A stretch of DNA of 64,000 bases from Panopea generosa (Eukaryota; Mollusca; Bivalvia; Adapedonta; Hiatellidae). This document shows positions 3,835 through 57,215 of this stretch, in pieces. Position numbers and translations under genes: made by a program. The notes beneath the pieces were generated by a model. The model was given only the letters and a program-made list of their open reading frames with translations, did no database searches and was not told the DNA's origin. Location: NCBI GenBank assembly GCA_029582155.1, contig CM055902.1, forward strand, positions 13,732,041 through 13,796,040, written 5' to 3'. Positions within the stretch are counted from its first letter, which is position 1, and each line of letters begins with the position of its first letter.

Positions 3835-3842
3835 TATATAAA
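3835..3842 (+). promoter_or_regulatory. TATA box of gene A
   Basis: TATATAAA in the context CTCTATATAAACC, 76 bp before the start codon. Genes B and C have TATA-like boxes at nearly the same distance (81 and 79 bp). That shared spacing is the main reason to accept it. Transcription probably starts near 3866. Confidence 0.7.
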
Positions 3843-3865
3843 CCGAAGCTCCCACAAAGCGTCGT

Positions 3866-3913
3866 GAACACACACTTTAGAGAAAGGAAGAGACCTAAAC
3901 ACCGGTCGGTATG
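3866..3913 (+). CDS. Gene A exon 1: 5'-UTR plus ATG only
   Basis: The start codon at 3911-3913 is followed directly by the donor GTAAGT, so the exon contributes a single Met. The 5' end is estimated from the TATA box. Exon 2 has no in-frame ATG that could serve instead, and the same arrangement is found in the two paralogues. Confidence 0.7.
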
Positions 3914-6900
3914 GTAAGTCTTTGTTATTTCAAATTTGTTTAAACTGTTGTGATGGGTTCGTTCTTTTCTTGAATTTTCTTCTGTTGGACATATATTTTT
4001 CCTATTTGTGACTGTTCAACATGAGTAATGTCTTTCAAAATATTGAAACATATTTGATTAATATATCATTATTTGTGTTATACTCTGAAAAATATTGCGG
4101 CTTTCACTGTTAATGAACTATTATAATTAAGATATTTACCTTGACATGGCGATTTAATCTTCAATTTTGATTAAATTTAAGAATACCGGAAATATTTTTA
4201 GATATTTTAAAAAACAACAATTTATTAATTTATTGAATTCAATGGTCATCTAGTGTACAACGCAAACTTTAATTAATCAAATAACCATAATGAATTCATG
4301 AAGGAAATGTGGTACAAACGGCAGTCGAAATCAGTTGACTGCACTACAATTATGCTTGAAATAAATAAAACATAACATGGAATTGTTGAGATTTATTGTA
4401 CATATATAAATCAACATATTATTATATTATTATTATTACATCTTATTTTCTCAGTAAATGCGTACTATGTCCTCCATTAACTCATCTTTAAAATATGAAA
4501 AAAAGGAACTCTCTTGAATAAAATATAAATGCACATACTATTAATCATTCAAATAGCATTCTGCCGCTGTGTTGCATATTGGACCTCTGTTGTAATGTTT
4601 AAGTGAAATATATGATTTTTGTTAAAGTATTGATATTTTTGTAAGAAAGTGTAATCATGCAATGAACAATTTCCTATACTTTATTATATAAACTGTTTCA
4701 AATAGTTCATTTTCCTATCAAGACACACAGTATAACTGTTTATCAATACAATATAATTGTTCATTGTATATGAGTCATAGCATTTCATACAATAATTTGG
4801 AGCGCATGGTTCAGTGGAGGCGGATCGAACCCAGGATCGGAGGGTCGTGTGTTTGATCCTCCTCCACGGCTACAAGTATGTGTAGCGTCTTTGAGCAAGG
4901 TACTATTTCCCGCGTATGCTTACTACTGGTTCTAACCAGGAAGACTTCGAGTGTGAATTGTATTAGTACTAATAACTTTTTTTCACAATCGAAGTAAATT
5001 ACAACAAAATACATTTTAACTAAAAAAAAAAAATATATATAAAACGATACTGAGAATGATTATAATAATGACAATACAAACACACAGAGACAGTAACAAC
5101 ACGTACTACATCCTTGGAACGGTCACTGAGTACTGGAATACGTAAAGAAGATTTGTTAAAACAATATAAATCGTAAATAATGCACTTCCTTACGTTTCAA
5201 GAATGTTTGAATTATCATCGACTCAGACAATAAAACGTTTTTCCCTTTTTTTAGGAGCGATTATCAACTGTTTTGTGTGTTTTCCTTTGCATGAGCTGTG
5301 TTTACAGATACTCATCCGCAGGCAAGTATTGTTTGAATTATAGAATCAGAATGTAAACGAAACTTAAGATTACGATTTAGTATGTGCATTAATTACATGA
5401 ATTTGTTATTATATTTAATTGATACCAATACTAGTCGTCAGCTTAAAGTAACGTTATCGACACGTATTTCATAACGTCATGGACGCGGAATTTGACTATG
5501 ACTAGCCTTTATGCAGAATAAATAAAACGTATCGGTTCTTCTTAATAATTTAAACTGTCCTGTTTATTGAGATTTAGATATGGCTTTCATTTATATATTA
5601 TCAGACCAGTATATGTTGATTACATATAATTTTCATGTTGAAAAAGTTAAAGAAATGCTTAAAGATATAGCGAATATTGTTTGAAGCACCAAGTGATCAG
5701 CATAATTTATACAATTCTGACGCGTACTCTGAGAGACGTTTAAAATTGGAATGATCCACTTTCTTACCGAGAGTAGTTAACATATTGCAAAGGAACACCT
5801 CGTACAAATGAAAATAAATATACATTTTTAAATTGATTCATAACACTAGATGATACTTAAATTCGAGTCTATGAAACGGCACTTAAACGTCAATTATCGA
5901 AATGGTATACAACGGCATCGCCAAAACCTGAAACATCAATATACCGGCTGTATTTGCCCATGACAAAACAGGTATATGGACGTCGCACATATTTCTAACC
6001 GTCCAGACGGATAATGGTCATTATTAAAAAAAGGCTATGCACAAAGTTTCGAAACAAGCGGCGGACCAAAAGTTAAAACATATCCTGGAAGTGGATCCTA
6101 TCAAATAGTATAAAAACGCGTCGCCTCATGGACCAGAATAGGTAACGTCGTTAATAACGCTATGTGGATTTGAAACCCTCGCTTTATTTTCATGATTTGT
6201 GTCCGTGCGGCTTCGATATATTTCACATACATCTTGAAATCTTGAACTGTTGTCACAATCGTTGAATGGTGACACGCGCGTTGATGTGTTTATTCAGTGA
6301 TTACATGCTGAATTGGTCATATATATTGGTCACAATTTTGAAGTTGTAAAGAATTTTAATCACTCAGATATAGTGCTTTTTTTCATTAAACTGGTAATCA
6401 TTAATTGAGTAATGAACATTTAGTAGGTTAAGCTATTTGATTCCTTTATTGAATCAGTATTGTGTTTTTCGTATGAAATTCTGAAGATTATTAATGGAAA
6501 ACCATACATTGGCAGATATAAACCCATAATAAGCTTGGGTTGATGTAGTAAAATAAATATTAATACTTCTATTAATATAAAATGTGTAGCACAGCAATAT
6601 CAAATAGGTGTTATCAATAATTGTTCATACCGTTTATAAAACAACAAACTGATAAGGAAACTGCTTTAATATTTGATATTAATAATGTTCATAGTTACAC
6701 AATATATAGCAATCATAATTTACGGTTTATTCCATTTATGTACAGTTTTGATATAATATTCAGTTTATAATAAATGTCGGCGTACCAAACCGTCTTTACG
6801 CAATTGTCTGCGATTCTAATTTTAACCGCTCTGCTATTCTGTTACAAGACTCGTTTCTGTAAACGCTACCTCTGTGTTATGTAGGTCATAATAATTTTAA

Positions 6901-9693
6901 CTGATAGTTGCTAATATATGCTTTCACCTTTTCTTAAAACAACAAATGTATGGGTCACTACCGTTATATGGGTTATGGGCGCGTGGTCGCGCGGATTTGT
7001 AGTGTATATAGTTAAAAGTTTTAGTTTGTAATATTTTACAGTAGGTTTCTCAGTCTGTCTGCAATATTTTATATAGAAAATTGTTTATATACTTGTGTTG
7101 TTGTTTTCTTTTCGTTCCGGGTTTAATATTGTAATATATTTACTTTTGAAAGACCATTTACAATAAAACATTTTTCCAAGAATTTAGTAAAGATTTCTTT
7201 CTTTTAGTTTGATTATCTGCAGTACAATCCGTTAGTATTGTTGGATGTATAGGATGTTTTAGATGTTACATGTAAGAGATTTATTAAAGGGCCATGGTAA
7301 TTTTCTAATTGTCGTTTTTTTTTTTTTAAGATAGATGTCAAAATTGAGTGTAATTTTTTGCATTTTACATATTGATTGATATATACTGTTATTATATTAA
7401 CTATACAATTCTATAGTTTGTGAATATTTCGCTTTACAAAAAACACTTAAGGTTTATGGTTAAGGAGAGATTGATTGCACTCGTAAACCATGTTTAAGTT
7501 CCGAGTGTTGACTTTCAACACAGTCCGTCGTTAGCCAGTGTCTCCTGGTGGAGCCTCTCCAGTATGTTTGTATTGGTTCTTATGTTTGTACTGTAGGGGT
7601 GGCATTTGATTGCTACATGATGAAATGTTCAAAATAGGTTAACATTTTTAAAATGAACGCTTTGTTGACAATGGTATTTCAAGGCATCTTGGATATATGT
7701 ACAGTACTGTATGTATTGCTACATTATACATTAATAGTAGTTATTTTTCTCATTAATACCTTGCGTTCTGCCCTTAATACTGCAACACTTATCCTAAATT
7801 CGTTTAATTGGTTTCATGAAAATGATATAATACAATGAAAACACGAGTTCCCTTTGTAGGTCGTGCACTTGTTACAGTATGTATACAATGACTAGATAAA
7901 TCTGCTATCATACCAAAATACCCCTAATACGGTAAGTACCATCTGAATATAAATAACGTAGTTTCACAATAGCGTATTGGATTTATAAAATATCGAACTT
8001 AACAAAATAATAATTATAATAAACACAAATACTCGGATTTAGGATAATATGCGAAGTGCTTTCGGAAATAGTCCGGAATCGCTTTCACTAAAATCAATAA
8101 CGAATACAATTGTTTATAAACAACTTTCTTATTTATTCCAACGATTTACAAGTTACATGGGTTTCTTTCTGACTATGTATAGTTGGTTCATGTCGTGGAC
8201 ATAAACTATATAGGTGAGGCGGCCTCATAAAATGATAAGTTCATACAGGATTTATTCATGTTATAAACATTTCATATGCTTTTGTAAGAATTGCCAATAT
8301 TAAAAAATATCAACATCACATTACTCACGATATAGTTTCCATGTATCGTTTTGTAAAGTCATTTCTCTTACATAAAACGTGTTTCTATAGACGACACCGA
8401 TACGACAAAATACTAAGATGAGAATATTCTTAAACTATCAAGTATTGATAGTTTGTACGAAATTGATAACAATTAACTATTTAATCACTTGTTTCAGATT
8501 GCGGTGATCTTGCAGATGTGGTTAACGGAGCAGTGGAAACTACAACAACAACAGACGGTAGTACCGCTACATACAGCTGTGATTCTGGCTACTCTCTTAG
8601 CGGTGACGCTACAAGGACATGCCATGAGGGAACATGGACTGGCACAGCACCGACATGTGGCGGAGATGGTATGTATATAACTTTGGAAAAACTAAATCTG
8701 TGTAGATATGCTATGCATCAATAGTAACTATCTTTCTTATAATACTGCACAAAATAGACTATGACAATTGCGTATAAAAACGCTTTCGTCTTTATCTGAT
8801 TTTTATGGTGATTTGATTTTAGGCTTTGTAAGATAATCGGTCGTTGTCACTTGTCACATTATTACTTCAGTGTAATATGATTTATGTGTGTAATATGAAA
8901 AAGTAATGTCCGTGTGTTTGTTCTTTACAAAATCTAAATATAAAATTTTAATGAAAAATCTAAGTTTGATACTTTGTTTAAAACTTCGTTTTATCAATTA
9001 CATGTATAAATCATATTACAGATTGTCCTGCGCTAGGAAATATAGAAAACGGAGCTGTAACCTCAACTGACGTAAGCGACGGAAGCACAGTTACATACAC
9101 ATGTAATAAAGGATATACCTTAAGTGCAGTCACAACAAGAACATGTAATGCAGGAACATTGAGTGGCACGGATCCGACATGTGTTGCAGGTAGCGTATAT
9201 ATCCACATAACGCTGAAACATTTACTAGGCCTTTGTCGTATCACGTTTCTAATTTTCAGAACATACATTTTGAAATACATATTGAATTAAATGATGGTAC
9301 ATTAATTGGTATTAAACGTCATATTTTGAAAATACAATAAGAGTAATCGTAGTAATATAAGTATAACACTTACGCGAACACTTATAACATTAGAAAAGCA
9401 TTAATCAGCCATCATATTACATATTACTATGTACTTTTTTTCTTTTGACACATTATTCAGATGTTTATCAAAACGGTTATGATCCTTTATTCAGCAACGT
9501 ACTGTTAAATTAAGTTAAACAAAATTTTAGTCACTAATTAAATGGTAGCCGTATATTCAATTAAGTAACAAGTAAAATGGATTCTGTTTCCCAGTTATGT
9601 AAGTTTTATCATAAAACTAAGTAATGGTTGGATGGTGACACCATGATTTAGAATTCCTGTATAAAGTTATGCTCAACATTGTATTGATTTATT

Positions 9694-9736
<43 letters not shown>

Positions 9737-12700
9737 AGGAGGAAAAAAACTGTTTATTTGGTAATACCCTCACCTTTGTAGTTGTTACACTATCACACTA
9801 TTCTCTCTAAATGTGCAATGAAATTGCTATGTCTCTTGTTGGTGGTATTTTATTCTTATTGTAAAGGAAACTTGCGGAATATCATTATAGAGATATGGGT
9901 TGTATTCACGTAAGCCCATATATGGCGCATCACAGATGAACTCTTGTGATCATATATCGGTAACATTTTCTTTGAAACAAATTTGCATTTATTTTTGTAT
10001 GATCATTGGGTCAAAATTATTAAGATTTGTTAAAAAATATGGAGCATATAAGTGAAAAAGGCGTTTTTTTTATTGAACGTTTAGAAAATAATTAAACTTC
10101 AGTGTAATATGATTTATGTGTGTTGTAGTAAAATGTTATGTGTTTGTTCTTTACAAATTCTAAATATATAATTTTAATGAAAAATCTAAGTTAGATACTT
10201 TGTTTTAAACTTTGTTTTTTTCACAATTACATGTAAAAATCATATTACAGATTGTCCTGTGCTAGGAAATATAGAAAACGGAGCTATAACCTCAGCTGAC
10301 GTAACCCACGGAAGCACAGTTACCTACACATGTAACAAAGGATATACCTTAAGTGCAGCCACAACAAGAACATGTAATGCAGGAACATGGAGTGACACGG
10401 ATCCGACATGTGTTGCAGGTAGCGTATATATCCACATAACGCCGAAACAATTAGCCCTTTGTCGTATCACGTTTCTAATTTTCAGAACATACATTTTGAA
10501 ATACATATTGAATTAAATGATGGTACATTAATTGGTATTAAACGTCATATTCTGGAAATATAATTAAAGTAATCGTAGTCATATAAGTATAACAGTTTGT
10601 ACGCGAACATTAATTACATTACAAAAGCATTAATCAGCCACCATATAATTTTTTACTTTTATTTCGTTTCACGTAGATATAGTGTTATTTATGAAAAATT
10701 GCAATGCTCAGTATGTATAAATGGCTATTTCTTTTACATATGTTAAATCGATGGTGGTCAGAATTGAAATAAAACATGACAATAAAATATATAAAACACT
10801 TGATTATTATTATGATTTTATCAAACAGCTCATACGGCTATAAAGCATGCATTTATTATACAACATGGTCCACTAGCGATATGCATGTTGCTTAATACTT
10901 CGCAATTCTTTAACATATTTGTTTTATATCGATACTTTGAGATAATTTTGGTGACGTTTGCCATAGGTTGTTTCAATGCCGTAATACCCATGGTAACTTC
11001 TTTCAAACTACAAGTCAAACACAATCATTACAATAATAATAATATCACGTACAATACAAACACACGATATGGGTTACCGCCTTGGAACAATCAGCAGCAA
11101 TACCTCCACTGGAGGAGCTTAAACCTTGTGTACGGGTGAAAATATCGGCACCACTTAGGTGGTCATACATGTATAATTAACACACACGTCAATGAAAGTA
11201 GCCTTGGCGACTTGATACTTCCACCACCACACATCATACAAGTATGAGGTCAAAATTGAAATAAATATGATTTATGACAATAAAATATTAAACACAAATT
11301 ATTATTATTATGATTTTATCAAACAGTTAATTCGGCTATAAAGCATGCATTTATTACCCAGCATGGTACACCAGCCGTATATATGTTGCTTAATACTTCG
11401 CAATTCTTTAACATATTTGTTTCATATCGATATTTTGAGATACTTTTGGTAACGTTTGCCGTAGGTTGTTTCAATGATGTAATACCCATGGTAATTCTTT
11501 CAAACTACAAGTCAAACACAATCAATTTTAATGAAAACTCTAAGTTTGATACTTTGTTTTAAACTTTGTTATATCACAATTACATGTAAAATTCATATTA
11601 CAGATTGTCCTGCTCTAGAAAATATAGAAAACGGAGCTATAACCTCAGCTGACTTAACCCACGGAAGCACAATTACCTACACATGTAATAAAGGATATAC
11701 CTTAAGTGCAGCAACAACAAGAACATGTAATGCAGGAACATGGAGTGGCACGGAGCCGACATGTGTTGCAGGTAGCGTATATATCTACATAACGCTAAAA
11801 CATTTAGGCCTTTGTCATATCATGTTTCTAATTTTCAGAACATACATTTTGAAATACATATTGAATTAAATGATGGTACATTAATTGGTATTAAACGTCA
11901 TATTCTGGAAATATAATTAAAGTAATCGTAGTCATATAAGTATAACAGTTTGTACGCGAACTTTAATAACATTACAAAAGCATTAATCAGCCACCTTATA
12001 ATTTTTTACTTTTATTTCGTTTCACGTAGATATAGTGTTAATGATGAAAAATTGCAATGCTCAGTATGTATAAATGGCTATTTCTTTTACATTTATTTAA
12101 TCGATGGTGGTCAGAATTGAAATAAAATATGATTTATGACAATAAAATATTTACACACTTAATTATTACTATGATTTTATCAAACAGCTAATACGGCTAT
12201 AAAGCATGCATTTATTACCCAGCATGGTACACTAGCCGTATGCATGTTGCTTAATATTTCGCAATTCTTTAACATATTTGTTTTATATCGATACTTTGAA
12301 ATAATTTTGGTGACTTCTTTCAAACTACAAGTTAAACACAATCAATACAATAATAATAATATTACGTACAATACAAACGCACGATATCGGTTACCGCCTT
12401 GGAACGACCAGCAGCAATACCTCCGCTGGAGGAGCTTAAACCTTGTGTACGGATGAAAATATCGGAACCACTTAGGTGGTCATATATAACTAATTAACAT
12501 ACACGTCAATGAAAGTAGCCTCGACGACTTGATTCTTCCACCACCACACATCATACAAATATGTTTATATCTCGATAATGCTCATAGATTCGTTTGGTGC
12601 CTGTACCGATGATCCAAAGACATGTCCAGTTGACACAATTAACACCGAATGTGTGGAAGACAGATGTGTTTGTGCGGACGGTTATTACAAGGATGGAGAC

Positions 12701-13421
12701 AGCTGTGCAGATGAAGGTAATGAGTATACATATACGCAATAATTGATAATATTATACTTATATATGTATTATCAAATACTATTGTCTATCGAGTGACTTC
12801 GCCTCAGTAAATTATATCTTGATGTGTGACTGTTTTCATTATTTTATTACCTTATCTAAATAGTTCGTATCCTGCAGGGACGATCTGGTAACAGTAAATT
12901 TACCTGTTATTAAAACCATCAATACAATTATAGAGAAATTTTCATTTTAAAACGGCAAAAGTGGTGACTTACTTTGTAAAATTAAGTTTTTTTTTTTTTT
13001 ATATTCGTTTTGTTTATAACGGTGTGTTAATAAAATGTTTGGCAGAGTTTTGATCCAGATGAAATTATCTTTGACTGGTGTTTTGAATTTGTTTGCATTT
13101 TAATAAATAATGTGTACATCTTACGTTACTTACCTGCATTTTTTAATAACGTTAATACCTATTCATGAACCATCCATGGTTAAATATGTGGTATGCATTA
13201 AGGAACATATACAATCATTTTTCAATAAGCCTTTATTAATGAATGTTATGAAATGATAAGTCAATACATATACATGATCCAAATTACTTTTGACTGCTAA
13301 TTGAAATTTCTAATAAACTATTTTTTTTCTATTTGTTTTAGATCCTGATAGTTTTGCAATGGTGACTAGATTGACGATCTCTGCTATGATAGTCTCACTG
13401 ACAATACATTTGTTCTTTTAA
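3911..13421 (+). CDS. Gene A: secreted/anchored protein with four CCP domains and one EGF/EB-like module
   Basis: Spliced gene with coding exons 3911-3913, 5255-5321, 8498-8668, 9022-9189, 10251-10418, 11604-11771, 12588-12716 and 13342-13421. Together they give 317 residues. The first intron is phase 0, right after the ATG, and all later introns are phase 1. The order is signal peptide (1-23), CCP1 (24-80), CCP2 (81-136), CCP3 (137-192), CCP4 (193-248), a six-Cys EGF/EB-like module (249-291) and a hydrophobic C-terminal tail (292-317) with no cytoplasmic part, fitting a GPI signal. CCP modules usually bind proteins or glycans outside the cell, so the product should sit on the cell surface. 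The ligand is unknown. It is the first of three tandem paralogues. Oddities are a GC-AG intron after exon 2 and loss of the conserved Trp in CCP2. The exon chain comes from splice signals and frame only, with no transcript evidence. Confidence 0.8.
4798..5012 (+). mobile_element. tRNA-derived SINE, family S2
   Basis: tRNA-like head (GCATGGTTCAGTGGAG, then TGTTTGATCCTCCTCC) followed by a body with GCTTACTACTGGTTCTAACC and GAAGACTTCGAG. It matches 25490-25690 throughout and 16262-16402 in part. Lies in intron 1 of gene A. Confidence 0.75.
5255..5321 (+). CDS. Gene A exon 2: signal peptide, with a GC donor
   Basis: With the preceding Met it reads MERLSTVLCVFLCMSCV then YRYSSA: a short basic start, a hydrophobic core and a small-residue cleavage region. 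The acceptor is TTTTTTTAG. The donor reads G|GCAAGT, the typical form of a GC-AG intron, leaving phase 1 as in the paralogous exons. The length (67 bp) equals that of gene B exon 2. Confidence 0.8.
5322..8497 (+). other. Gene A intron 2
   Basis: No further CCP or EGF exon is visible. A 36-codon frame at 6774-6884 encodes a short hydrophobic segment followed by a basic, Cys-containing tail. An AATAAA lies at 7162-7167. Neither is enough to call a nested gene. Confidence 0.45.
8498..8668 (+). CDS. Gene A exon 3: CCP domain 1
   Basis: 57 codons, phase 1 at both ends. The four CCP cysteines are present (DCGDL, TYSCDSGY, RTCHEG, APTCGG), with the conserved Gly-Tyr after Cys2 and the GTWTG Trp between Cys3 and Cys4. 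It is clearly diverged from the other three CCP exons, so it is probably the older copy. Splice sites are GTTTCAG and G|GTATGT. Confidence 0.9.
9022..9189 (+). CDS. Gene A exon 4: CCP domain 2 (Trp replaced by Leu)
   Basis: 56 codons, phase 1-1, four cysteines in CCP spacing (DCPAL, TYTCNKGY, RTCNAG, DPTCVA). The near-invariant Trp between Cys3 and Cys4 is Leu here (GTLSG against GTWSG in exon 6), from a TGG to TTG change. It differs from exon 5 at about 10 of 168 bases. Confidence 0.9.
9698..9733. repeat. (GA)n microsatellite in gene A intron 4
   Basis: About 18 GA units followed by a degenerate GGAGAAGGAGG stretch. Confidence 0.95.
10251..10418 (+). CDS. Gene A exon 5: CCP domain 3
   Basis: 56 codons, phase 1-1, with all four cysteines and the Trp (GTWSD). 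It is about 95% identical to exon 6: nine base differences, seven of the affected codons changing the residue. Acceptor (CATATTACAG) and donor (GCAG|GTAGCG) match those of exons 4 and 6, so the duplication included flanking intron. Confidence 0.9.
10640..12560. repeat. Intronic repeat copied with the CCP exons
   Basis: A roughly 0.6 kb block (10640-11245) recurs after exon 6 (about 12000-12560). A truncated third copy (about 11250-11523) runs directly into the upstream flank of exon 6. The full copies contain the landmark GGTTACCGCCTTGGAAC and end near CCACCACCACACATCATACA. Open frames inside it (10885-11139 and 12244-12456) are intronic and not conserved as protein. Confidence 0.75.
11604..11771 (+). 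CDS. Gene A exon 6: CCP domain 4
   Basis: 56 codons, phase 1-1, four cysteines and the Trp (GTWSG). Youngest-looking pair with exon 5. Its upstream flank begins abruptly at a repeat junction near 11525, marking a duplication breakpoint. Confidence 0.9.
12588..12716 (+). CDS. Gene A exon 7: EGF/EB-like module
   Basis: 43 codons, phase 1-1, six cysteines spaced C-x6-C-x8-C-x4-C-x-C-x10-C, ending C-V-C-A-D-G-Y-Y. The gene C cassette has the same closing pattern (C-V-C-D-A-G-Y-Y), so the two are homologous modules. EGF and EB modules cannot be separated by eye. Donor is G|GTAATG. Confidence 0.85.
13342..13421 (+). CDS. Gene A exon 8: C-terminal anchor tail and stop
   Basis: Begins DPDSFAMVTR, then a hydrophobic run LTISAMIVSLTIHLFF ending at TAA. 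No cytoplasmic residues follow, fitting a GPI-attachment signal with a possible omega site at the Asp-Ser just after the start. Paralogous tails occur at 31889 and 55699. A tail-anchored membrane protein is the alternative. Confidence 0.8.
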
Positions 13422-14675
13422 TTTAGGTGTTATAATGTTTTGATTCTTTAAATTGTAATTCTTTGCTTTTATACCTGTGTGATTTACCATTCTTTCAAAG
13501 ACAATTGGCATGCTATTGTTTACCTTTACGTACATAAGCAAAAACAAAATAAGATTCGTTTAAAAAAAATAATTTTAAAATCATAAAACTTCTGAATTAC
13601 TGCTGAAATAGCCTTCATTACTTTATTACTCATGTAATATGAAAAGGGAAACATATGGAAGTAAACAAATACGTTATCTTGCAGTATACATGCAATTCAA
13701 ACATGTGTAAAATGATAGATGTATACATGATGGATTTATCCCAAATAGCTAACATTTACTGTGTGACATGATCTCCTGGAAAAATATGTATTTGAATGGC
13801 ACAATGTTCAATGTAAATGTATTACATAACTGTTTTGTTTATTCATAAATGGAAAGTGACTAAACTTCAATATCTGGAGATCTGGTGATTATGTAGTTTG
13901 AGTATAGGATACATCACTATGGTGTCGCATATCAAGTTTGTTTTTCGATTCCAAAAGCATTAGTCAACCAGCTGTTAATTAAATATAAATATGTGTAAAA
14001 TAACGTTTGTTAAAACTAGTCAAAACTTTAAACGTCGATGTCTGAATGGTCAAACAACATATTATATAATACGATCTATCATATTGCCAATGATTTTTTA
14101 ACAAAGAGAATCTACTTTTGGGCAATAGTGGACTGAGTAATTTTTACTTCAGTAATGTACTATACAGTAATAATAAATTGAGTGCATTTGTCATTTTTAA
14201 AACACTGAGATAAAAAATTAAAAATGCAATTTCACTCTCTATATTGGTTTTATATTCCTGCAGAAAGCCAAATGAACATTAGTAAATGTTATATCAGATA
14301 ACAAAATTGTTTTTACTTATATTAGTTATTCCTTCAAAAGATTTTCCCTGTTAAATAAACTATTTAATCAATAGACATTTTAAGTTTGTTTTTATAATAG
14401 AATACCTTTATAGTTATTTAATGTATTAATTAATTTTAGTTAGTTGTTATTTTATAACTGATTTTTCTATTCCAAATGATGAATATCCCGAATAATTAGA
14501 TCACTTACTTAGCTTTGCCTACTCGCATGAACGTGTCTCCTGTATCCTGAATATACAAACATCTATACTGTCCCTATGTGTATATTATATTGTTTATAGT
14601 AAATTCAATAGTTGGTTTCAGTTATGGAAAATGATTCCCTCGTAATTCGGGAATAAAAGAAGCATTAGTTACAAA
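13422..14675 (+). other. Gene A 3'-UTR (inferred) with conserved block
   Basis: The region contains GGTTTTATATTCCTG (14246-14260) followed by an AAGCCAAATGAACAT stretch. The same block occurs after the stop codons of genes B and C. The AATAAA at 14652-14657, in a GGGAATAAA context, is the most likely poly(A) signal; another lies at 14172-14177. Confidence 0.6.
14652..14657 (+). terminator. Candidate poly(A) signal of gene A
   Basis: AATAAA in the context CGGGAATAAAAG. Genes B and C have similar signals (GGAAATAAAG and GGGAATAAAG) at a comparable place after the conserved UTR block. Confidence 0.5.
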
Positions 14676-26108: not shown

Positions 26109-26116
26109 TATTTAAA
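26109..26116 (+). promoter_or_regulatory. TATA-like box of gene B
   Basis: TATTTAAA in the context GCTATTTAAATG, 81 bp before the ATG of gene B. It is a weaker match than in genes A and C but at the same distance. Confidence 0.55.
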
Positions 26117-26138: not shown

Positions 26139-26192
26139 TACAGAACGGAAAAGATACTTCGTTAAGGACTTTCCAAAGAAGACAAAACAATG
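26139..26192 (+). CDS. Gene B exon 1: 5'-UTR plus ATG only
   Basis: ATG at 26190-26192 in the good context AAAACAATGG, followed directly by the donor GTAACT. The 5' end is estimated from the TATA-like box. Confidence 0.6.
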
Positions 26193-29100
26193 GTAACTAT
26201 TTATCATAGTTTTCTTATTTTATGTATATTTTAAATAGCATTTGCATGGGAAAGAAATTATTGTCTAAAACACAAATCCGTTTTTATTCAGATGCATATA
26301 CTTTTATATTTGACAAAACAAAACATATATTCTAATTGCAATTTTAATATTTATCATTTATGAGTTAGAGTAGCCACAGTTGAAGTATACTAATATATGA
26401 TACAAAAATCTAATTAAATATTTACAAGTTGTATCTTAAGTGACCATGTTTAATAATTTATGAATTAACATTGTACAGTTTGGAAAATTACTGATGAAAT
26501 AATATTGTGCAGATTAGAAAATTACTTGTCTTGGATCTATGTTCTTTACGGACAGCACTGTAACAATAAAATATTGATATAAATTAATGGAAATATGTTG
26601 TGAAAAGATTTAGATTAAACATGAATGCGTTAAATCTTAGACATTGCTATCATCAGAAAAAGATGGGAAAAGCGTTGAATGTTAATCTAATATATCATTT
26701 CAATACAAATATATATTTTTATCATAACATTTTTTTTTTACATTTCTACACTTACTTACACCACTTTGCTCAATGGCAAATATATTTCACGATTTATATT
26801 TAATAATTCACTATATTTTACTTAAAAAACTAGTATATACATAGTCACCATTTCGTTTATAAAGCTCCCTTAATTTTACATATAATGAAAGGAAAAACTG
26901 ATTCGTTGAAAAAAAATTATGAAAATCTATTGTACGACTAACGCTCTATAAATAGAGGAGCATGACTTAACTCTAAGGTAAATCTATATGTATATACATA
27001 TCCAATATAATGACTTACTTCTAAAGAAAAGCTAAATTATATACGTATCTAATAGCATAACTTATCTCTAATGTAAAACTATATTTATATACGTATCTAA
27101 TAGCATGACTTACATCTAAAGAAAAGCTTTATGTATATACGTATCTAATAGCATGACTTACTTCTAAAGTAAAGCTATATGTAAATATGTATCTAAAGCA
27201 TGACTTACCTCTAAAGTAAAGCTATATTTATATACATATTTAATAGTATGAGTTACCTCTACTGTAAAGCTATATATATAGATATATACATATTAAATAA
27301 CATTACTTATCTTTAAAAGAAAAGCTTAATGTTTATACATATTTTATAATATGGCTAAGCGTCAATAATATTATAATATTAATAATAACTAAATTAAATA
27401 ATATATGTATACTTATCTCTAAAATAAAAACGTATATAAATATATGTTTAATTGTATGACTCAGCGATAAAAAACAAGCTGTATTTACTTTTTTAACAAT
27501 ATGGCTAGTCTCTTAAAAGATATATGTATATAAATATTTAAGAGTATGAATTAGCACAAAAAAGTAAAAGCTATATATCTTTATATATTTAATAATATGA
27601 CTGTAATATAAAAGCCAAAGATATTGATACTTAACATCAGATGTCTTTTCCGGTGAACTTAAACATGAATATTTAAAGTGTTGCTGAAAACAACAATTTA
27701 ACACCAAAAAATGTGTGATGTGAAATTTTAAAGACATGACTGGTTATTTTATCAAAGTTGGTGTTTAAAAAAAATAAATATGTTAATTGAAATGTAATGC
27801 TTACTGATAAATTATAATCACATTTTCGCGTATAGTTTGATTTTTTTGAACATTTAGCGTCAGTTAAGTGCCATCGAGGGCTAATATATGATCATTTAAC
27901 CCAACTCTTTCCTGGGATGCTGGAAGGTAAACTAGTACTCAAGCTCACACAACCCTCAAAATAAATGCTTACTTTTTCACTTGAAACAGTTATAAGAGAC
28001 GAATAATAATAAGATACGTTGTCTTGTATGAATCGTCACGGAGACTGTGACCGGGCGGGGTTTCGACCTCATGTCCCATGGATTATTATCACTATTCTAT
28101 ATGAAACATTCTCTAAAGAACAAAGCAGTATTATCTCGATGAAGAAATGGAAGTATAACTCATATGACCAGAAACATAATGGTAATATTATACAGAAATA
28201 ACTGCTTGTTACATCTATTGCAGATCTTCACATTACACTTTAAATGCATTATGATTTCTCGTTAAATGTAATTCTTCATTGATCAGTTAGTGACAACACT
28301 TGATTGACGATGAAGCTGACAAAGTTATTTCGCATTCAGACCATCTTGATGATACTTCAATAATAATAGCCAGTTCTTTGATCCAATACTTATACTAATC
28401 TTCCGCAAATGCAATTTCTGAAGAATTTTACAAAAGTGCATCTTGTGTAGCAACCTCAGTTCAACAATAATTCTTAGTGTAACAAGATCAGTTTCAACAT
28501 TGAAGAGAAAATAAACATTTAAATATAGGCTCTAAGACAAACATATGAAGCCTATTTATTTATTTTTTTTCTCTTTCAGATTCGATTAAGCCTGATTACG
28601 TTGATAATGATTGCGTTGTATTTCTTTATGACCTTGGAAGTACAGGGTATGTACAATATATATTCCTACTTGTTTTTAAAACATGTCTAATACTTTGGTT
28701 GTTCTTTGCTCTTCCAATTTAATTGACTATACAGAACAAGTCATACGTGCTGTGTAACAGTCGTACAAAGTCGTCCTGTACTTTTACTCGGTATTGTTTA
28801 TGTTAAGTATACCTTGGAATCATATTATTTAGTTTTACATAAGAACTGAGAAACGCTTAAGCTGGTGCTGTGTGGCGTTACGGCATGTTATGTTTCACTA
28901 AACCTGAGGAAACGATGTGGTTGTTGGTTTGATTTGGTTTGGTTGTGTTCTCCGCTCCCAATGGACCTTTTTTCATTGGTTAGCCAAACACCAGTCTAAC
29001 ACGTCCGTGATGTGTATTGAACGTAAAAAGTCGCCACATACTTTCTTAAATTATTATTTCTAAAGGGTATCTTTCGTGGCCAAGTGGTCAAAGGCGCCGT

Positions 29101-37736: not shown

Positions 37737-37744
37737 TATATAAA
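37737..37744 (+). promoter_or_regulatory. TATA box of gene C
   Basis: TATATAAA in GCTATATAAACTGG, 79 bp before the ATG. The core and spacing match gene A. Confidence 0.7.
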
Positions 37745-37766: not shown

Positions 37767-37818
37767 CAACGTACACTTCTAGCTTCACAGAGACAAAGAA
37801 GCACACTGAAAAGCTATG
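37767..37818 (+). CDS. Gene C exon 1: 5'-UTR plus ATG only
   Basis: ATG at 37816-37818 followed directly by the donor GTGAGT. The 5' end is estimated from the TATA box. Confidence 0.65.
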
Positions 37819-46800: not shown

Positions 46801-46905
46801 TTACTACTACTACAACTAGTACTTCTACTACTACTTCTACAATTATTATTATTATTATCGTTACTACTACTACTATTACTATTACTACTACTACTACTAC
46901 TACTT

Positions 46906-46938
<33 letters not shown>

Positions 46939-46950
46939 ATACTAATACTT

Positions 46951-46983
<33 letters not shown>

Positions 46984-47309
46984 ATATTTCTTCTACTACT
47001 GCTACTATTATCATAGTTGTTATCGTTACTACTACTACTATTATTATTACTACTACTACTACTACTACTTCTATTACTAGTACTAGTACTTCTACTTCTA
47101 CTACTACAACTATTATAATTATTATCGTTACTACTTCTACTACTTCTACAACTACTACTTCTACTTCTACTACTGCTACTACTACTTCTACTACTACTAC
47201 AACTACTACTTCTACTACTACTACTACTACTACTACTAGTAGTACTTCTACTACTTCTACTAAAACTATTATTATTGTTATCGTTACTACTACTACTACA
47301 ACAACAACA

Positions 47310-47349
<40 letters not shown>

Positions 47350-50300
47350 GTAGTAGTAGTACTTCTACTACTACTACTACTACTACAACTATTATTATTG
47401 TTATCGTTACTTCTACTACTTCTACTACCACTACTTCTACTAATACTACTACTAGTACTTCTACTATTACTACTACTACTATTTCTACTACTACTATTAC
47501 TACTACTTCTACTACTACTATTACTTCTACAACTATTCCTACTACTACTTCTACTACTACTTCTAGTACTTCTATTTCTTCTACTTGTATGTCTACTACT
47601 TCTACTACTACTACTACTACTACTACTGCTACAACTACTACTGGTATTTCTACTATAACTACTACTACTACTACAACAACTACTACTACTACTACTACCA
47701 CTACAACTACTACTTCTACTACTACTACTAGCATTCAACTATTACTTCTTTTGCTACTACTACTATTACTACTACTACTATTATAATATTACTATTGCTA
47801 CTACTATTATGTAAATTCATATCCATCGAGATGTCAAAATATGGTATGACTGGTTGTACATTTATTCTTTTATTTTGTATTTGTTGGAAGAAGTGAATAT
47901 AGCTTGGTCATAACTATAAAACAATAAGTGACAAAATATATAAGAATACAACACATTTTGCGCATCTTATTCGGAAACATTGTACCGAAGTGCTGGTTTA
48001 TCACAAAGATATAGTCATAACACGAATATATGGGAAAACACTATAAATTAATGGACATTTCTGAAATAATTTCGAAAATAAGTTTTTGCTGAGTAAATTA
48101 GAACAATAACAAAAATATGACTAGTAGTTTCTAGTATTCGACATTTACGCAAAAGACTATATATTATAGATGTTTTGAAAATATTATATAAGTTTAATAA
48201 TGTGCATAGCATAACACCGTACCTATACAGGTTTTTTTTGCGAGTTCAATCCACTTCCATTATACCAACAGCTGCAAAATGAAGACATGCTTTTGATAAC
48301 ACAATTAAAGATGCACCTATAATTTTAACCTTGTAGTCGCAGCATTTATAGGTATTTTAACCCAAATATATATATTTGGCCCGCTGTCACACACAGATAT
48401 TTATATGAGAAGTAAGCTAGGGCTATATCACAAAAAAACGAGCTTATATTGTTACTTTATATCATATAAACATGTAATTTTAATAAGGTGCACATTATAA
48501 CTCTCGATTCCCATCAAGTATATTACATGTAACAGTTGAAAAATAGAGACATGCTTTTGATAATATAATTATGATTGCATATATGAAAATACTTCGTATA
48601 AATGTTTGTTTTGATAATATAACTACATAGTACATTTGATAAAAGTCCATAAACCATGTCAATACTATTATGAGTACATTGTATAAACAAAAATATAAGG
48701 CATATTTTGACATTTCAGGTCACGTATATTAACTAGCAAATGAATCCTAATTTAAAATAACATATATCTTTGACGTTGTTGTTGTACCTTTATTCATTTA
48801 CAAAGTATGATTGACGTAAGGTACATATTGAAAACGCATTTCTGACGAATTAAAAATAATTAAAGTTAACATGAAAAGATAGCATTTGGCAATACACAGC
48901 TATTCAACCAATGCTTCGCAATTGATTAACATAGGTTCTAATTTGAATGTTATTATTTGTGTTGAATTGGAAAGAGAAACAATGTTTGAGCAGACACTAT
49001 ATAAGACATTAATTACATCATTTACACGACATTTATTTTATTTAAAAGGCACATTAATGATTGTCCGATTGGTCTTACTGAAATATGATACAAAATTCAA
49101 AATACCAATCACAATCGACTTCAAGTTTATGCCAGTTAGATATCTAACGTCACAGTGTCATATCTTATATAATGTATTATTTGCATAATATTTGGTATAC
49201 GATCATGTTTAGATATACCTTAAATTTATATTTTACCTGTCAACTTTTAATAAATGTGTACATATATTATCTTTCAACTATGGAAATTATGTCCATATGG
49301 CTTTTATCAACCAAATTCAACATATATTATAAGGTAGGGAAAATGATTATCTTAATATTTATTATATAATTAACTTATATAATGCGGCATCGTATTTTGC
49401 GCATAGTGTAAAATAGCATTAGATATGTTCTTTTTTTTAATATATTACGTAAAAAGTTTGGTGAACGCATGCATTATAATCTGCTTAATGATTTTTCGGA
49501 TTTGTTATCTTCTAACCTACATCCACTTCCCCTAAATTCTGTCCAGCATACCTTATTATGACTCAAAATGGATTCAAGATCAATTTGGAGAAATGCATTT
49601 GACACGACACGCTTGCCAACTAAATTTTTATGATATAAGTATATCTATTCCAAATATTGTCAGGTGTTAATTTGAAACAGTTAGTACTACAATCTTCTTT
49701 TCATAAGGCACTGTGTATTATATCGCTTAAATGGATAACTCCCGATTAAAAGTACGATTATACATTCTTACATAAAAAAACGAAAAACAAATCAGCTACA
49801 TTGCTTGATTTCGTTTTACTTTAAACTTCTTTTAAACAGGTTTTCACTTTAAAAGGTTTAACAGTTATCCTAAAAAACTCGTCAGATTGCACGCATATGT
49901 TCGGTGTATTTGTAATTGATATTTGCAGCAGACTCATGTCATCTATCCCCTTACCATCCTTACCATTACGTCCATCCTCATATGCAATCATAGAACTGCC
50001 CCTGTTACTTAATATACTTTCCTGTCTAGCACACGGAGCGACATGCACGGAAGACGGAGACTGTACCGGTGAACACCAAGTGTGTGGAGATGGGGATACA
50101 AAAACATGTGTCTGTGATGCTGGATATTACCATGAAAGTCCAAATTGCGTTACCGGTAAGTAAATTAAAGAATTGATGTAGTTAATGCTAACAAATACTA
50201 TAACGGTAGTCTCTGAGGTGTACCTCCACCAATGAAAATTAATATACCACACATAACCTGAAATGATTTGAAAATGGCATTAAATCCCATTAAAAAAACT

Positions 50301-53300: not shown

Positions 53301-55781
53301 CATTACGTCCATCCTTATATGTAATCATAAAGCCGCCCTTGATACTTATATAATTTCCTGTTTAGCGCACGGAGCGACATGCACGGAAGACGGAGACTGA
53401 ACTGGTGAACATCAAGTGTGTGGAGATGGAGATACGAATACATGTGTCTGTGATGCTGGATATTACCATGAAAGTCCAAATTGCGTTACCGGTAAGTAAA
53501 TTAAACAACTGATGTAGTTAGTTCTAACAAATACTATAACGGTAGTCTCTGAGGTGTACCTCCACCAATAAAACTTAATTTATCACACATAACCTGAAAT
53601 GAGTTGAAAGTGGCATTAAACTCATTAGAAAAAAAACTGTACATGATTTTCATTTGTCAAAAATCAGATTTAAAATTGATGATGCCTGTACATCAAAACC
53701 ACAAAAAAATCCTCCGGAATTAGCCAGGAGTGTAGCAACGATATTAAATAAGCATGTTCATTTGGATTGTATAACGATGAAACAAATTAGCCTAATGTTT
53801 TCAGTTGAGTTTGTTATGTGAGATTACTGGTATTTAAATTTATATGTATGTCACAGGCTTTAACTGTGATAAAATATTACAGAATTTATTTTGCTAGGTA
53901 ATTATATGTAAGCAATGTTACGTAGTCTAGATTTGGCCATCAAAGTATAAAGGGATTTTGCATTGACAACAGCATAAACTATCTTAATGTCGTTTTTTTA
54001 TACTGAATATTTCTCGTATGATACGATACGATATCTCACTGCGATGCATCTGATGAAATACAAAACTGTAGATTAATATAGTGGCATATAATTGGCTAGA
54101 AATATGCTATCAGTACTGGTCCAAATTTCTTTGGTGATTTCTTAAATATTGAACTCATGATACATGTGAATAAAACACTTTAATTTTATACCTCCTCCTT
54201 CATCTGTCGGTTCGAAATATTCAGAGGAGATACTAGTGCAGTGATTCCTATACTGATCCCGAAATTCATGGACACCTTTGCATATGCTTATTATTATGAT
54301 TACAAATATCATCATCACTATCATATATCAGTCTTTATTTATCTACATTATTTGTTGTGCATTTGCTCTTCAAACAGAGGGCGTACATTTTTGCCTTTTG
54401 AGTTGTTGCTCTTTTGTTTATACACGTCATGGCAACTAAGAGTATATTAGAAATAAATTACAATGGGTGGGGGGGGGGGGGGGGGTGGGGTGGCGGGTAT
54501 TTTAAAGGCTTAACTCAAAATGTATTTACACTATGGAGTAAAATTTGTTACCTTTATCAATAGGATCTGATCGCTTCTTAAATAAATATGTAGAGTATGT
54601 ACATGTTCAACAAAATAAATTTTGGGAAATTATTTACACCTATATTCAACTTTTGAAGTGCTTGCAATCGTACTTATTAAGTTCTCGAACACTATTTTAA
54701 TTTCATGAGCTTTAATCATCTTTTTACAAATAGAAACAGTTCATTTATGCGTTACCTTTGCATTTGTGCACATAATTTCATCCAATGCGGTGAACAGTGC
54801 GACGATGAATTATAAGCAAGGACAAGAAATTGATAGTATACATTGTTATCAACTACGCATTTTGGTAATTGGAAACAAATGAAGTGGCATACAATAAGTG
54901 CATGTTATTGTTTATATACATCAAGGTACGCATGCGTAATGATTTTCATGAATCCATTCATGTACAGAGGTACACCCAGTTGCATCTATATATGGACGCT
55001 TCCCGGATATATTTATATATGATTGAATGTTTTACATGTGACAAACAATAACTTGCACTTTTTTATTGCATAACATTGCATTTTTTCCAATTTGCAAAAT
55101 ACGCAAATGTACACTTATAACAATAGGACCGATCTATTTCTTGCCTTTATTCATATTAATATGTTACCGTTGCAATAAATAGCCATTTGACGAAAGTAGG
55201 TCTTACCATGAATTGATTTAAAACTAACATTTTACTGACAGTTTACGTCAAATTTCAAGAGCAGTGTTGATAAATTAATTATGTCATTGAACTGATTTCT
55301 GTGCACAGAGGCGAAATTAAAGCATGAAACTATCTGACTGTCTTTGGTAAGAATATGATAATGAAATTATTCAGATTTTTCTGAAGCATATTAAATGACA
55401 TATTTGACTGAATGCATAAAGTTAACAATTCGTTATAACTTTACATGCTTTTGATTTATTCTACTGTTTTCAGTTGAGTTTTATTATATGATTATTTAAA
55501 TTTGTATACATGTCACAGGCTTTAATATCGTTAAAGTATTTAATTCAAAATATTATGTTGTAAAGTATTCATATATAAACAGTTATTTACAAAGTTGGGT
55601 TGACCTATCCGAGTGTAAAATGAAAATGAGTTGGCTAGACATTTTACATCTGCACCTTTCAAAGTCACTTTATATGATTCTGAATATTTCTTTTCCAGAA
55701 AATTCTGCTGGTATGACTGAATTGACTGTCGATGTCATGGTAGTTTCTCTGTTGATTGCCTTTTTTAATCAACTGTGTTAA
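37816..55781 (+). CDS. Gene C: EGF/EB-like module protein with signal peptide and anchor tail
   Basis: Exons 37816-37818 (ATG only), 42206-42275 (signal peptide), 50030-50155 (EGF/EB module) and 55699-55781 (tail). A second EGF/EB exon at 53366-53491 has an in-frame TGA. Skipping it keeps the phase-1 frame and gives 93 residues with an anchor tail. Including it gives 77 residues, no anchor, and probable nonsense-mediated decay. The gene spans about 19 kb, swollen by retroelements, a long ACT repeat and a tandem duplication. It shares promoter spacing, the ATG-only exon, intron phases and 3'-UTR block with genes A and B. It may be an active short surface protein, or a gene on the way to becoming a pseudogene. 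Function unknown. Confidence 0.65.
39838..39960 (-). mobile_element. S1 SINE fragment, degenerate
   Basis: Plus-strand AATGGAGTTTAACATC, a GTAGACATCAGAAAGAATCC stretch and AACCGTCCTTCC correspond to the reverse complement of the S1 tail and body. Strongly decayed, in gene C intron 1. Confidence 0.45.
41220..41850 (+). pseudogene. 3' end of a decayed non-LTR retrotransposon (L1/Tx1-like ORF2 C-terminus)
   Basis: Translation from about 41270 reads RPNKLLYNIQ onward through FRSLINTILRAFQYKYIIR and IIPNNQFLYKG. It reaches a Cys/His cluster (LCDFC then HLFWEC), the C-terminal zinc-binding region typical of L1-type ORF2. After a stop at 41661, a frameshift restores ILSKYFIYKNKYAKIIPMF and more to about 41846. 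No reverse-transcriptase core is present, so the copy is heavily 5'-truncated. In gene C intron 1, same strand as the gene. Confidence 0.7.
42206..42275 (+). CDS. Gene C exon 2: signal peptide
   Basis: 70 bp. With the exon 1 Met it reads MDRLSATFCVCLCLIGL then FNYSSAA, closely parallel to MERLSTVLCVFLC in gene A, including the final Tyr-Ser-Ser-Ala. Acceptor TTTTTTTTAG, donor CAG|GTAAGT in phase 1. It lies in a gap of under 600 bp between two retroelement fragments. Confidence 0.8.
42420..45380 (+). pseudogene. Decayed non-LTR retrotransposon (endonuclease end, reverse transcriptase, C-terminal region)
   Basis: Pieces in order: an endonuclease end (NANGESLIDYVIISNELF, 42475-42530); a linker near 43110-43340; RT motifs PVPKRGDLNDANNYR, DSQFGFRKRKSTVDC (about 43420-43580), a D-F-R-K-A-F-D remnant near 43650 and QGESLSPLLCILYINDM (about 43820-43870); then KEGLQSLLDQLYIYS and YSGITLSANDSFYQAH (43970-44190). 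Many stops and frameshifts break it, and the usual Ala-Asp-Asp of the RT active site reads Glu-Asp-Pro. The clade (CR1/L2/jockey-like) is uncertain. In gene C intron 2. Confidence 0.8.
45703..45718. repeat. G tract in a G-rich stretch
   Basis: 16 consecutive G, followed by a further G/T-rich run at 45745-45770. Just beyond the retroelement remnant. Confidence 0.85.
46708..47811. repeat. About 1.1 kb (ACT)n trinucleotide tract
   Basis: Long imperfect run of ACT with interspersed TTCT, ATT and ACA variants, and a recurring AATTATTATCGTTACT-like block near 46846, 47026, 47111, 47270 and 47393. Frames over 300 codons across it (poly-Ser, poly-Val and poly-Leu) are artefacts of the repeat. Confidence 0.95.
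50030..50155 (+). CDS. Gene C exon 3: EGF/EB-like module
   Basis: 42 codons, phase 1-1, six cysteines spaced C-x5-C-x6-C-x7-C-x-C-x10-C, ending CVCDAGYYHESPNCVT. Acceptor TTTCCTGTCTAG, donor ACCG|GTAAGT. The frame stays open upstream to 49897, but that stretch is intronic in copy 2, where it is not kept open. Confidence 0.8.
50205..50290 (+). mobile_element. S1 SINE tail fragment (copy 1)
   Basis: Contains GTCTCTGAGGTGTACCTCC, CACCAATGAAAATTAATAT and ACATAACCTGAAATG. The same fragment at 53545-53632 shows that the insertion predates the tandem duplication. Confidence 0.55.
51345..51880. repeat. Internal 262-bp tandem repeat
   Basis: GACATGCCTTTGATAACAT begins units near 51350 and 51614, followed by a partial unit near 51877. 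Each full unit has AACCTTGTAGTCGCAGCAT and TTTGGCCCGCTGTCACACA. Copy 1 has only one full and one partial unit (48285 and 48548). Confidence 0.8.
53366..53491 (+). pseudogene. Gene C duplicated EGF/EB exon with in-frame stop
   Basis: Copy of 50030-50155 with intact acceptor (TTTAG) and donor (ACCG|GTAAGT), same length and phase. The codon for the second cysteine is TGA (53398-53400) where copy 1 has TGT (50062-50064). Otherwise it is almost identical. Skipping it would leave the reading frame unchanged. Confidence 0.85.
53545..53632 (+). mobile_element. S1 SINE tail fragment (copy 2)
   Basis: Duplicate of 50205-50290, with CACCAATAAAACTTAAT closer to the S1 consensus than copy 1. Confidence 0.5.
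54469..54485. repeat. 17-base G tract, in duplication copy 2 only
   Basis: Copy 1 reads AAGGCGGAGTG at the matching place (about 50970), so the G run expanded after the duplication or is a sequencing or assembly artefact. Confidence 0.8.
55699..55781 (+). CDS. Gene C last exon: C-terminal anchor tail and stop
   Basis: 27 residues: ENSAGMTELTVD then VMVVSLLIAFFNQLC and TAA. The Asn-Ser-Ala-Gly start suits a GPI omega site, but the hydrophobic run is short and ends with polar residues. Acceptor CTTTTCCAG. Paralogous to the tails at 13342 and 31889. Confidence 0.7.
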
Positions 55782-57215
55782 CAACAATATAAAATTGCCA
55801 CGCAAGAAATAAAACGTGCTTTCATTACTTTCGGAATTAATATCTGGCTATTCTTATAAGATCAAGACTTGAAGTACGTATAACCATAAAAATCAACTAT
55901 AATGCCGACTCAGAATGTGTTTTAGAAAATCAAAAATTGACCATCTGTTAAAGATTATTATATATTGAAAAAAAAAGCGATTTTGTTTTCAACAAAATTG
56001 TATTTTGAAATATGGAATTGCGTGTTTGAAGGATTTACAATGTTTGTAGATGTATAATTTACATTACTTACGAGTACATGGAATCACATTGTATAAGAAA
56101 TAAATAATACGCAAAGTGAATATACTTTTTAAAAATAAAATAATATGATTCAAATGTCTATTATAATATTGAGTTTAATGAAATGTGTAGATGTGTAACT
56201 AAAATGAAATTGTATACTTTTTGTCTAGATACAAACCAATGAAAATGTAGATATATGTTCAACAATTTCTTTAACTTTTTCGTGATGGGAATGTAATTTC
56301 TTCGCGGTATATCAACATTTACGGGCTCTGTCGAAACAACTTTTGATATCTAACAGTTAAACATTACATTTCCATCACTAACAGTTACCATGTGACATAT
56401 TATCGTGGTATTAATTTACTTAAAGGCAAACATATATACCACATATGTATATAAATATAACTTTTATTGTTGGTATTTAGGTAGCTGTTAAAAAGCAACA
56501 AATGCCTTAATGACTGGGCGAATATGCAATTCGAGTTTAAACCTTCTTGTCAACAAAAATAAAAACGTTTGTGTTTATATATTGAACGGAACAGCTAACT
56601 TGCATTTACCTGACAATTATTTTTCAAAAAGTATCAAAGCAATTTCCTAGAAATTTGGACATGAATGAGAGAGAATATTTTGGTGATGTAAAGTCTATAC
56701 ATTTTGATAACGCTATTCAACATTTTGACGATGCTATTGGATAAACAAAAGTGGCGGACTAGCTGTTCTGTTTATATTATTGATTAATACTGCTATTTGT
56801 TTAATTTGTTTTTCAATATAGATAAATTTAATTGTTCAACTTTGTCGCACACACTTAGCTGCATATACCAAAATCAATGAATGTATTTGTGAGCATTTGT
56901 AATAAAAAACGACAAAATTCTAATTTTTCTATTGGTTTTATATTCCTGCAAATAGCCATATGAACATGGTTAACTATTAGACAAGATACTGATGACATAA
57001 ACTTTATCACACAATTAAACATATTATTTTGATTTCATTAATTTTTTTTAATATTTCTTAAAAGTTATGTTCTGTTTAAATTTTCAACTGAAAATCAACC
57101 TACATGTATATAATCAGTGTTTATAAGTGTTATCGTTAATTGTCAGATGATTTTAATGAGATCTGTAAAATTTTGAATGATAATGTTTCATGGGAATAAA
57201 GTAATTTATAATATC
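55782..57215 (+). other. Gene C 3'-UTR (inferred) with conserved block
   Basis: Holds GGTTTTATATTCCTG (56934-56948) followed by AGCCATATGAACATGG, shared with genes A and B, and AATAAA at 57195-57200. Confidence 0.6.
57195..57200 (+). terminator. Candidate poly(A) signal of gene C
   Basis: AATAAA in TGGGAATAAAGTAATT, matching the gene B signal in context. Confidence 0.55.

Follow-up and report, generated by a model that had tools for sequence, protein, structure and literature searches.

The window analyzed here is a stretch of 64,000 nucleotides of Panopea generosa DNA (C9:13,732,041-13,796,040), taken from a genome of 1.47 Gb in 39 contigs. Three genes on its forward strand, referred to as A, B and C, have their parts listed in Table 1. 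The exon chain of gene A (ATG, signal, four CCP modules, EB and tail) translates to 317 amino acids, that of gene B (ATG, signal, Thr/Ser exon and tail) to 80 amino acids, and that of gene C (ATG, signal, EB and tail) to 93 amino acids. All three chains are open throughout, with eight coding exons in A and four each in B and C.

Table 1. Predicted parts of genes A, B and C (positions within the window).
Gene	Feature	Position	Strand	Remarks
A	TATA box	3835..3842	+	76 bp upstream of ATG
A	Exon 1 coding part, ATG only	3911..3913	+	donor GTAAGT
A	Signal exon, (M)ERLSTVLCVFLCMSCVYRYSSA	5255..5321	+	phase 0 to 1; GC donor GCAAGT
A	CCP exon 1, type a	8498..8668	+	CCP
A	CCP exon 2, type b	9022..9189	+	Leu where copies 3 and 4 have Trp
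A	CCP exon 3, type b	10251..10418	+	CCP
A	CCP exon 4, type b	11604..11771	+	CCP
A	EB/EGF-like exon	12588..12716	+	cysteine spacing 6-8-4-1-10, shared with the last modules of A2, D and E
A	Anchor-tail exon, DPDSFAMVTRLTISAMIVSLTIHLFF-stop	13342..13421	+	short hydrophobic tail
A	Conserved 3'-UTR block	14242..14304	+	DNA match to B and C blocks
B	TATA-like box	26109..26115	+	81 bp upstream of ATG
B	Exon 1 coding part, ATG only	26190..26192	+	donor GTAACT
B	Signal exon, (M)IRLSLITLIMIALYFFMTLEVQ	28580..28646	+	diverges from signals of the other genes
B	Thr/Ser exon	30460..30540	+	phase 1-1; cysteine-free; three N-glycosylation sequons
B	Anchor-tail exon, DPGSSAGVAGVTISVMIGALAITLMETFCG-stop	31889..31980	+	DNA match to A tail
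B	Conserved 3'-UTR block	32738..32794	+	DNA match to A and C blocks
C	TATA box	37737..37744	+	77-79 bp upstream of ATG
C	Exon 1 coding part, ATG only	37816..37818	+	donor GTGAGT
C	Signal exon, (M)DRLSATFCVCLCLIGLFNYSSAA	42206..42275	+	type I signal; DNA match to A
C	EB/EGF-like exon	50030..50155	+	cysteine spacing 5-6-7-1-10
C	Second EB exon, broken	53366..53491	+	in-frame TGA; splice sites intact
C	Anchor-tail exon, ENSAGMTELTVDVMVVSLLIAFFNQLC-stop	55699..55781	+	short hydrophobic tail
C	Conserved 3'-UTR block	56930..56988	+	DNA match to A and B blocks

The three genes share a common frame around their modules, and its elements all lie at the positions originally given. As originally predicted, the coding part of exon 1 consists of the ATG alone, followed directly by GT, in all three genes, and each gene closes with an anchor-tail exon and a 3'-UTR block. 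The TATA box expected 76-81 bp before the ATG is present in each, although that of B reads TATTTAA rather than TATAAA. The signal exons start with (M)ERLS, (M)IRLS and (M)DRLS in A, B and C, respectively, but the donor of the A exon is GC. Phase-1 boundaries surround every module exon, whereas the signal exon begins in phase 0, which limits the symmetric exons to the module exons. Outside the modules, DNA matches connect the signals of A and C, the tails of A and B, and the UTR blocks of all three genes, which show 77-81% pairwise identity.

The modules themselves differ among the three genes. Four stretches of A lie above the Pfam cut-off for PF00084 (CCP; E 6.7e-42), and no stretch of B or C exceeds that cut-off. 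The PDB chains matched in sequence by the CCPs of A are those of CR1, factor H, CR2 and DAF. For EB (Pfam PF01683), the modules of A and C fall under the cut-off, and the array of the neighboring gene Z lies above it. Additionally, the signal exon of A has its nearest relatives in the signal exons of genes Z, F and G, and the signal of B represents a third type, apart from type I and from the type II of genes D and E. The predicted mature peptide of B comprises approximately 30 residues, is Ser/Thr-rich and carries three N-glycosylation sequons. A Pfam match of B to a glue-protein family (E 0.011) is below the cut-off and is ascribed to composition.

The module content anticipated for the three genes (four CCP and EB in A, Thr/Ser in B, EB in C) agrees with these chains, except that C contains a second EB exon broken by a TGA codon. 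The EB exon of C sits in a 3.3-kb tandem duplication of which the second copy is the broken one; because this exon is symmetric, it can be skipped without loss of the frame. A 1.2-kb ACT/TCT-rich repeat in the long intron of C (window 46620-47790) is open for 379 amino acids, mostly Thr/Ser, on the forward strand, and nothing marks it as an exon. Stretches on either flank of the C signal exon (window 41202-41663 and ~43000-44300) resemble, by eye, remnants of a LINE-type reverse transcriptase, and a SINE-like repeat recurs in intronic or flanking sequence of all three genes (window 14712-14859, 29085-29410, 50212-50296 and 53548-53623).

Neighboring genes with the same frame

The 264 kb around the window contain five further genes, Z, D, E, F and G, all in the same orientation as A, B and C. 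Gene Z, upstream of A, B and C, contains five EB modules; D contains five EGF and one EB, E contains three EB and three EGF, and F and G contain four EB each, and CCP exons within the 264 kb occur only in A. A signal exon, a tail exon and a UTR block are present in all five genes. Exon 1 is present in Z, D, E and F, and a search for that of G did not find it. A distant paralogue of A, referred to as A2, lies at C9:14,596,404-14,610,227 on the reverse strand and displays a TATA box, ATG/GTAAGT, the signal EQLSTALCVLLCMSCVYRYSSA and the same GC donor as A, with four CCP, an EB, a tail with DPDNSA and a UTR block downstream.

The ATG-only exon 1 with its GT donor, preceded at 68-81 bp by a TATA-like box, is found in Z, A, B, C, D, E and A2; exon 1 of F is preceded by TAAATAAA in place of the TATA-like box. 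A signal exon of 67-70 nt running from phase 0 to phase 1, as well as the anchor-tail exon and the 3'-UTR block, are found in all eight genes of the 264 kb and in A2. Genes D and E carry the second signal type (ERFICTVVLCYCVSSVLITQSS and ERLIYTVVLCYCVSSVLITQSS).

A pattern of an acceptor, x-R-L-S and a hydrophobic open exon, scanned on both strands of the 264 kb, is found at six places on the forward strand, three of them new and the others being A, B and C, and at none on the reverse strand, compared with a mean of 0.15 and a maximum of 1 in 40 order-2 Markov surrogates. The corresponding scan for TATA plus ATG/GT gives seven places on the forward strand and one on the reverse strand (surrogate mean 0.75, maximum 3). 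Because both patterns were drawn from A, B and C themselves, the test resides in the new places. The region around exon 1 of gene F also has an inverted copy, 73% identical, at C9:13898698-13899120 on the reverse strand.

Gain and loss of modules

The original prediction that symmetric modules are gained or lost between fixed ends is consistent with the recurrence of the frame in A2, in the neighbors Z, D, E and F and, apart from exon 1, in G, and is further supported by the decaying module copy in C and by a comparison of A with A2. The order of the CCP exons is a,b,b,b in A and x,a,a,b in A2. The three b copies of A are 81-89% alike and 66-72% identical to the b of A2; the two a copies of A2 show 87% identity to each other and 75-77% to the a of A; and exon x is 64% like the a exon of A and 47-58% like the other compared CCP exons. 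The CCP copies are therefore closer within a gene (81-89%) than between A and A2 (66-77%), which suggests that the four CCPs of A and those of A2 arose through duplication of different exons, with gene conversion within each gene as an alternative explanation for the likeness.

Additionally, gene A appears as a mosaic. Its signal is 73-82% identical to those of Z, F and G and 27-32% identical to those of D and E, whereas the cysteine spacing of its last module is 6-8-4-1-10, as in A2, D and E, versus 5-6-7-1-10 in C, Z, F and G. In 5000 column bootstraps, with Z and F representing the Z/F/G group and the last-module alignment gapped by hand on the cysteines, A is nearer to Z/F than to D/E in 100% of the replicates for the signal and in 0.3% for the last module (99.7% nearer to D/E). 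This result agrees with the proposed swapping of modules, and it may also come from differential loss, with an ancestor that possessed both kinds. Together, the different CCP duplications and the mosaic of A support a family in which the ends stay fixed and the modules are added, lost or exchanged, a statement that covers exchange and differential loss alike.

The differences among A, B and C could instead be mostly losses from a longer multi-module ancestor, without exchange between genes. Genes with several module types do exist, namely D and E (EGF and EB) and A and A2 (CCP and EB), and this account retains a sizeable chance of being correct, although one short of even odds, as the CCP exons that were duplicated differ between A and A2 and the EB exon of C was duplicated recently. 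These duplications indicate that gains occur; they do not by themselves prove exchange from gene to gene.

Selective constraint and the 3'-UTR core

Among exon pairs of equal length, the dN/dS of signal exons within a type is 0.10 (Z-A), 0.18 (A-F and A-G) and 0.28 (D-E); the pairs Z-F and Z-G give 0.63, on six changes, and F and G are identical. The EB exons among Z, F and G give values of 0.09-0.53, and the EGF exons of D give 0.35-0.47. Constraint is not seen in the tail exons of Z, F and G, which show two amino-acid and zero silent changes per pair, or in the CCP-b copies of A, with dN/dS of 0.6-1.3 on 9-13 changes.

Gene B, with its divergent signal, weak TATA box and lack of a recognized module, could be decaying, and B especially, along with some other members of the cluster, might consist of pseudogenes or remnants in which the frame is inherited baggage. 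The stop in the second EB exon of C and the lack of a recognized exon 1 in G point in this direction, as does a copy at C9:12744345-12744425 in which all 81 bases are identical to the UTR block of A and the nearby CCP match is split over two frames; this place is a very recent and possibly broken copy of A. However, the chains of A, B and C are all open, and dN/dS is mostly below 1 in the signal and EB exons of the paralogues (a comparison to which B itself does not belong), which makes this reading unlikely.

The 3'-UTR blocks share a core of approximately 40 nt (38 alignment columns) with a mean identity of 0.85 across nine genes, versus 0.51 in the flanks. A folded RNA in the core is unsupported, as none of the six predicted pairs is changed on both sides, and Rfam gives no match at the gathering threshold within the window. 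The core contains the motif ACATTCC in Z, F and G, which we take to be a miR-1 seed site, and ATATTCC in the other six genes.

C-terminal tails and the predicted membrane anchor

A signal, a small-residue site and a hydrophobic C-terminus are recognizable by eye and by hydropathy. Nine tails, from eight genes and A2, were read by the GPI attachment-site rule, and the triplet at the expected place is N-S-A in five, S-S-A in two, N-A-A in one and S-F-A in that of A. In none of the nine is the hydrophobic stretch followed by a basic run. The tails are thus probably best read as GPI-attachment signals. If the tail exon instead encoded a single-pass transmembrane segment without a cytoplasmic tail, or if the protein were secreted, no GPI anchor would be involved. 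The tails of Z, F and G end in GKLC, with a lysine near the end, and that of B ends in METFCG, with a glutamate near the end, so the hydrophobic stretch is not always terminal, as such a segment or a secreted form would allow; nevertheless, the uniform lack of a basic run and the N-S-A, N-A-A or S-S-A triplet in eight of nine tails make both forms improbable relative to GPI attachment.

Distribution of the family in the genome

The counts from searches of the 1.47-Gb genome are minimum values in which the query genes are counted. All 18 matches of the type I signal (E up to 10) fall at C9:12.71-14.78 Mb, four of them with E >0.1 and gene C among these four, and all 15 matches of the type II signal fall at C9:12.79-15.77 Mb with E <0.002, so that the 33 signal matches lie in one stretch of approximately 3 Mb. 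The UTR block of A is matched 32 times, in each case at C9:12.74-15.78 Mb. Of eight UTR blocks found locally, the genome search listed five and missed those of B, Z and G; with these three, the total is 35 blocks, and this rate of omission suggests that the family may actually number closer to 50 genes. The family therefore comprises at least 34 signal exons and at least 35 UTR blocks in ~3 Mb of one chromosome. The EB of C is matched at C9:12.7-15.8 Mb in 42 of 45 cases, the remaining three being weak and on C6 and C14. The predicted set of three is thus real as a group of paralogues but far too small, and the EB, UTR and signal matches across the cluster rule out A, B and C as an isolated set.

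The confinement to C9 is less strict for the tail exon, because two of the 11 matches of the Z/F/G type lie on C3 and nine on C9. At the C3 place that was examined, ~1 kb matches the Z/F/G tail region at ~70%, and no module pattern or good UTR match is present within 3 kb. For the CCP of A, the best 13 of the 150 matches scored (from 1159 candidates) lie in the C9 cluster, four of them being the exons of A itself, and the remaining scored matches are weaker and mostly on other contigs. The possibility that the CCPs of A are unique in the cluster was ruled out, as, apart from the exons of A itself, the top-scoring matches are CCP exons at other places in this cluster. The spread is uneven: the interval from 13.06 to 13.71 Mb contains no match of these searches, and matches past 15.0 Mb are few.

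Genes were grouped from the positions of the matches, the CCP matches entered being those of the C9 cluster. In this ordering, 24 of 34 signals are followed on the same strand by a UTR block before the next signal, a count that includes pairs more than 50 kb apart, which may not represent one gene. Type I signals precede EB or CCP exons. CCP exons are found at 14.018-14.022 Mb and a type II signal at 14.0075 Mb. Part of a C-like gene with five matched EB-type exons lies at C9:14310878-14317016 on the reverse strand, with a UTR block at 14307770.

An explanation that treats the signal exon, tail exon and UTR block as fragments of a dispersed repeat situated by chance beside unrelated module exons would accommodate the tail exon with ~1 kb of flank on C3 and the SINE-like repeats of A, B and C, but is highly implausible given that all 33 signal and all 32 UTR matches fall within one 3-Mb stretch of the genome and that most signals precede a same-strand UTR block in order.

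Comparison with known systems

In modular animal proteins, such as CCP/EGF mosaics, modules have been shuffled on phase 1-1 exons. The C9 genes resemble these mosaics in having, after a signal exon and ahead of a putative membrane end, CCP, EGF and EB modules on symmetric phase-1 exons, and they differ in their many tandem copies with constant ends (ATG-only exon, UTR core) and differing modules. Gene A, with four CCPs and a probable GPI tail, resembles CD55/DAF, a vertebrate GPI-anchored CCP regulator; however, A has an EB after the CCPs, and PDB matches of CCPs of this kind are general. By description only, the predicted mature peptide of B resembles short GPI glycopeptides such as CD52 and CD24, whereas its ends assign B to the C9 cluster.

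The SpTransformer (Sp185/333) genes of the sea urchin are described as a clustered immune multigene family of an estimated ~50 members, whose sequences are mosaics of internal repeats located in the second of two exons (PMC5491942, PMC8634487, PMC5103432, PMC9623053). The clustering and internal mosaics of that description are shared by the C9 family, but here whole modules lie on separate exons followed by an anchor exon, and the number of coding exons in A, B and C does not correspond to a two-exon layout. In Schistosoma japonicum, genes sharing a core promoter and signal sequence are reported from 34 contigs in 18 scaffolds (PMC3434034). A promoter region and signal sequence common to the members is a trait of both sets; however, those genes are dispersed, and the abstract of that report makes no mention of a common anchor or 3' end (PMC3434034), whereas the C9 genes form one cluster with a shared tail and UTR block. 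The Botryllus fester gene encodes a surface protein linked to allorecognition and contains an SCR/sushi exon as well as skippable exons (PMC3549757). A sushi exon in a (here predicted) surface protein is common to both, but fester has predicted transmembrane domains, its diversity arises via alternative splicing and alleles, and a module-varying family with fixed ends is not described in the available part of the account (PMC3549757).

Searches of the open-access PMC literature, in which absence is not proof, found no described family of this kind. On the basis of its sequence, we call the C9 set a candidate clustered, exon-shuffled surface-protein family with ends fixed down to the 3'-UTR, akin to the above systems and filed under none of them.

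Proposed organization and function

The results are best explained if A, B and C are members of one clustered family with fixed ends, varying phase-1 modules and putative GPI-anchored display at the cell surface, to which we assign a probability of approximately 0.68. In the sequence, the start frame, an ATG-only exon 1 and a short 0-1 signal exon, is constant across members, whereas the phase-1 modules (CCP, EB and EGF, and Thr/Ser in B) vary in kind and number by duplication, loss and probably exchange of symmetric exons. The constant 3' end consists of the short hydrophobic tail exon and the UTR core of ~40 nt. The protein would enter the secretory pathway, the tail, with its N-S-A-like triplet and hydrophobic end, would be replaced by a GPI anchor, and the modules would be exposed on the cell surface, where they would act as binding units carried by a constant chassis.

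By analogy with other clustered and varying families, recognition or defense is the likeliest role, although the steps beyond display are predicted with less confidence: the family might serve such a role, unequal exchange in the germ line might generate its diversity, and the UTR core might co-regulate the members. A bolder and only tentative proposal is that the ~3-Mb locus acts as a germline module-swapping device for lipid-anchored receptors, supplying individual recognition repertoires and possibly representing an allorecognition or immune-receptor locus. The chassis would then comprise the start, signal, anchor and 3'-UTR control core, with slots for CCP, EB, EGF and mucin-like modules. 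If the locus varies among individuals, it would be a candidate recognition or defense locus.

Phase-1 exon shuffling is mostly inferred from ancient events. At this locus, recent gains, a decaying copy and differing module sets adjoin between unchanged ends, which makes shuffling measurable within one cluster. Additionally, the UTR core, matched only inside the cluster in the genome search with the block of A, is a testable candidate for a shared control element.
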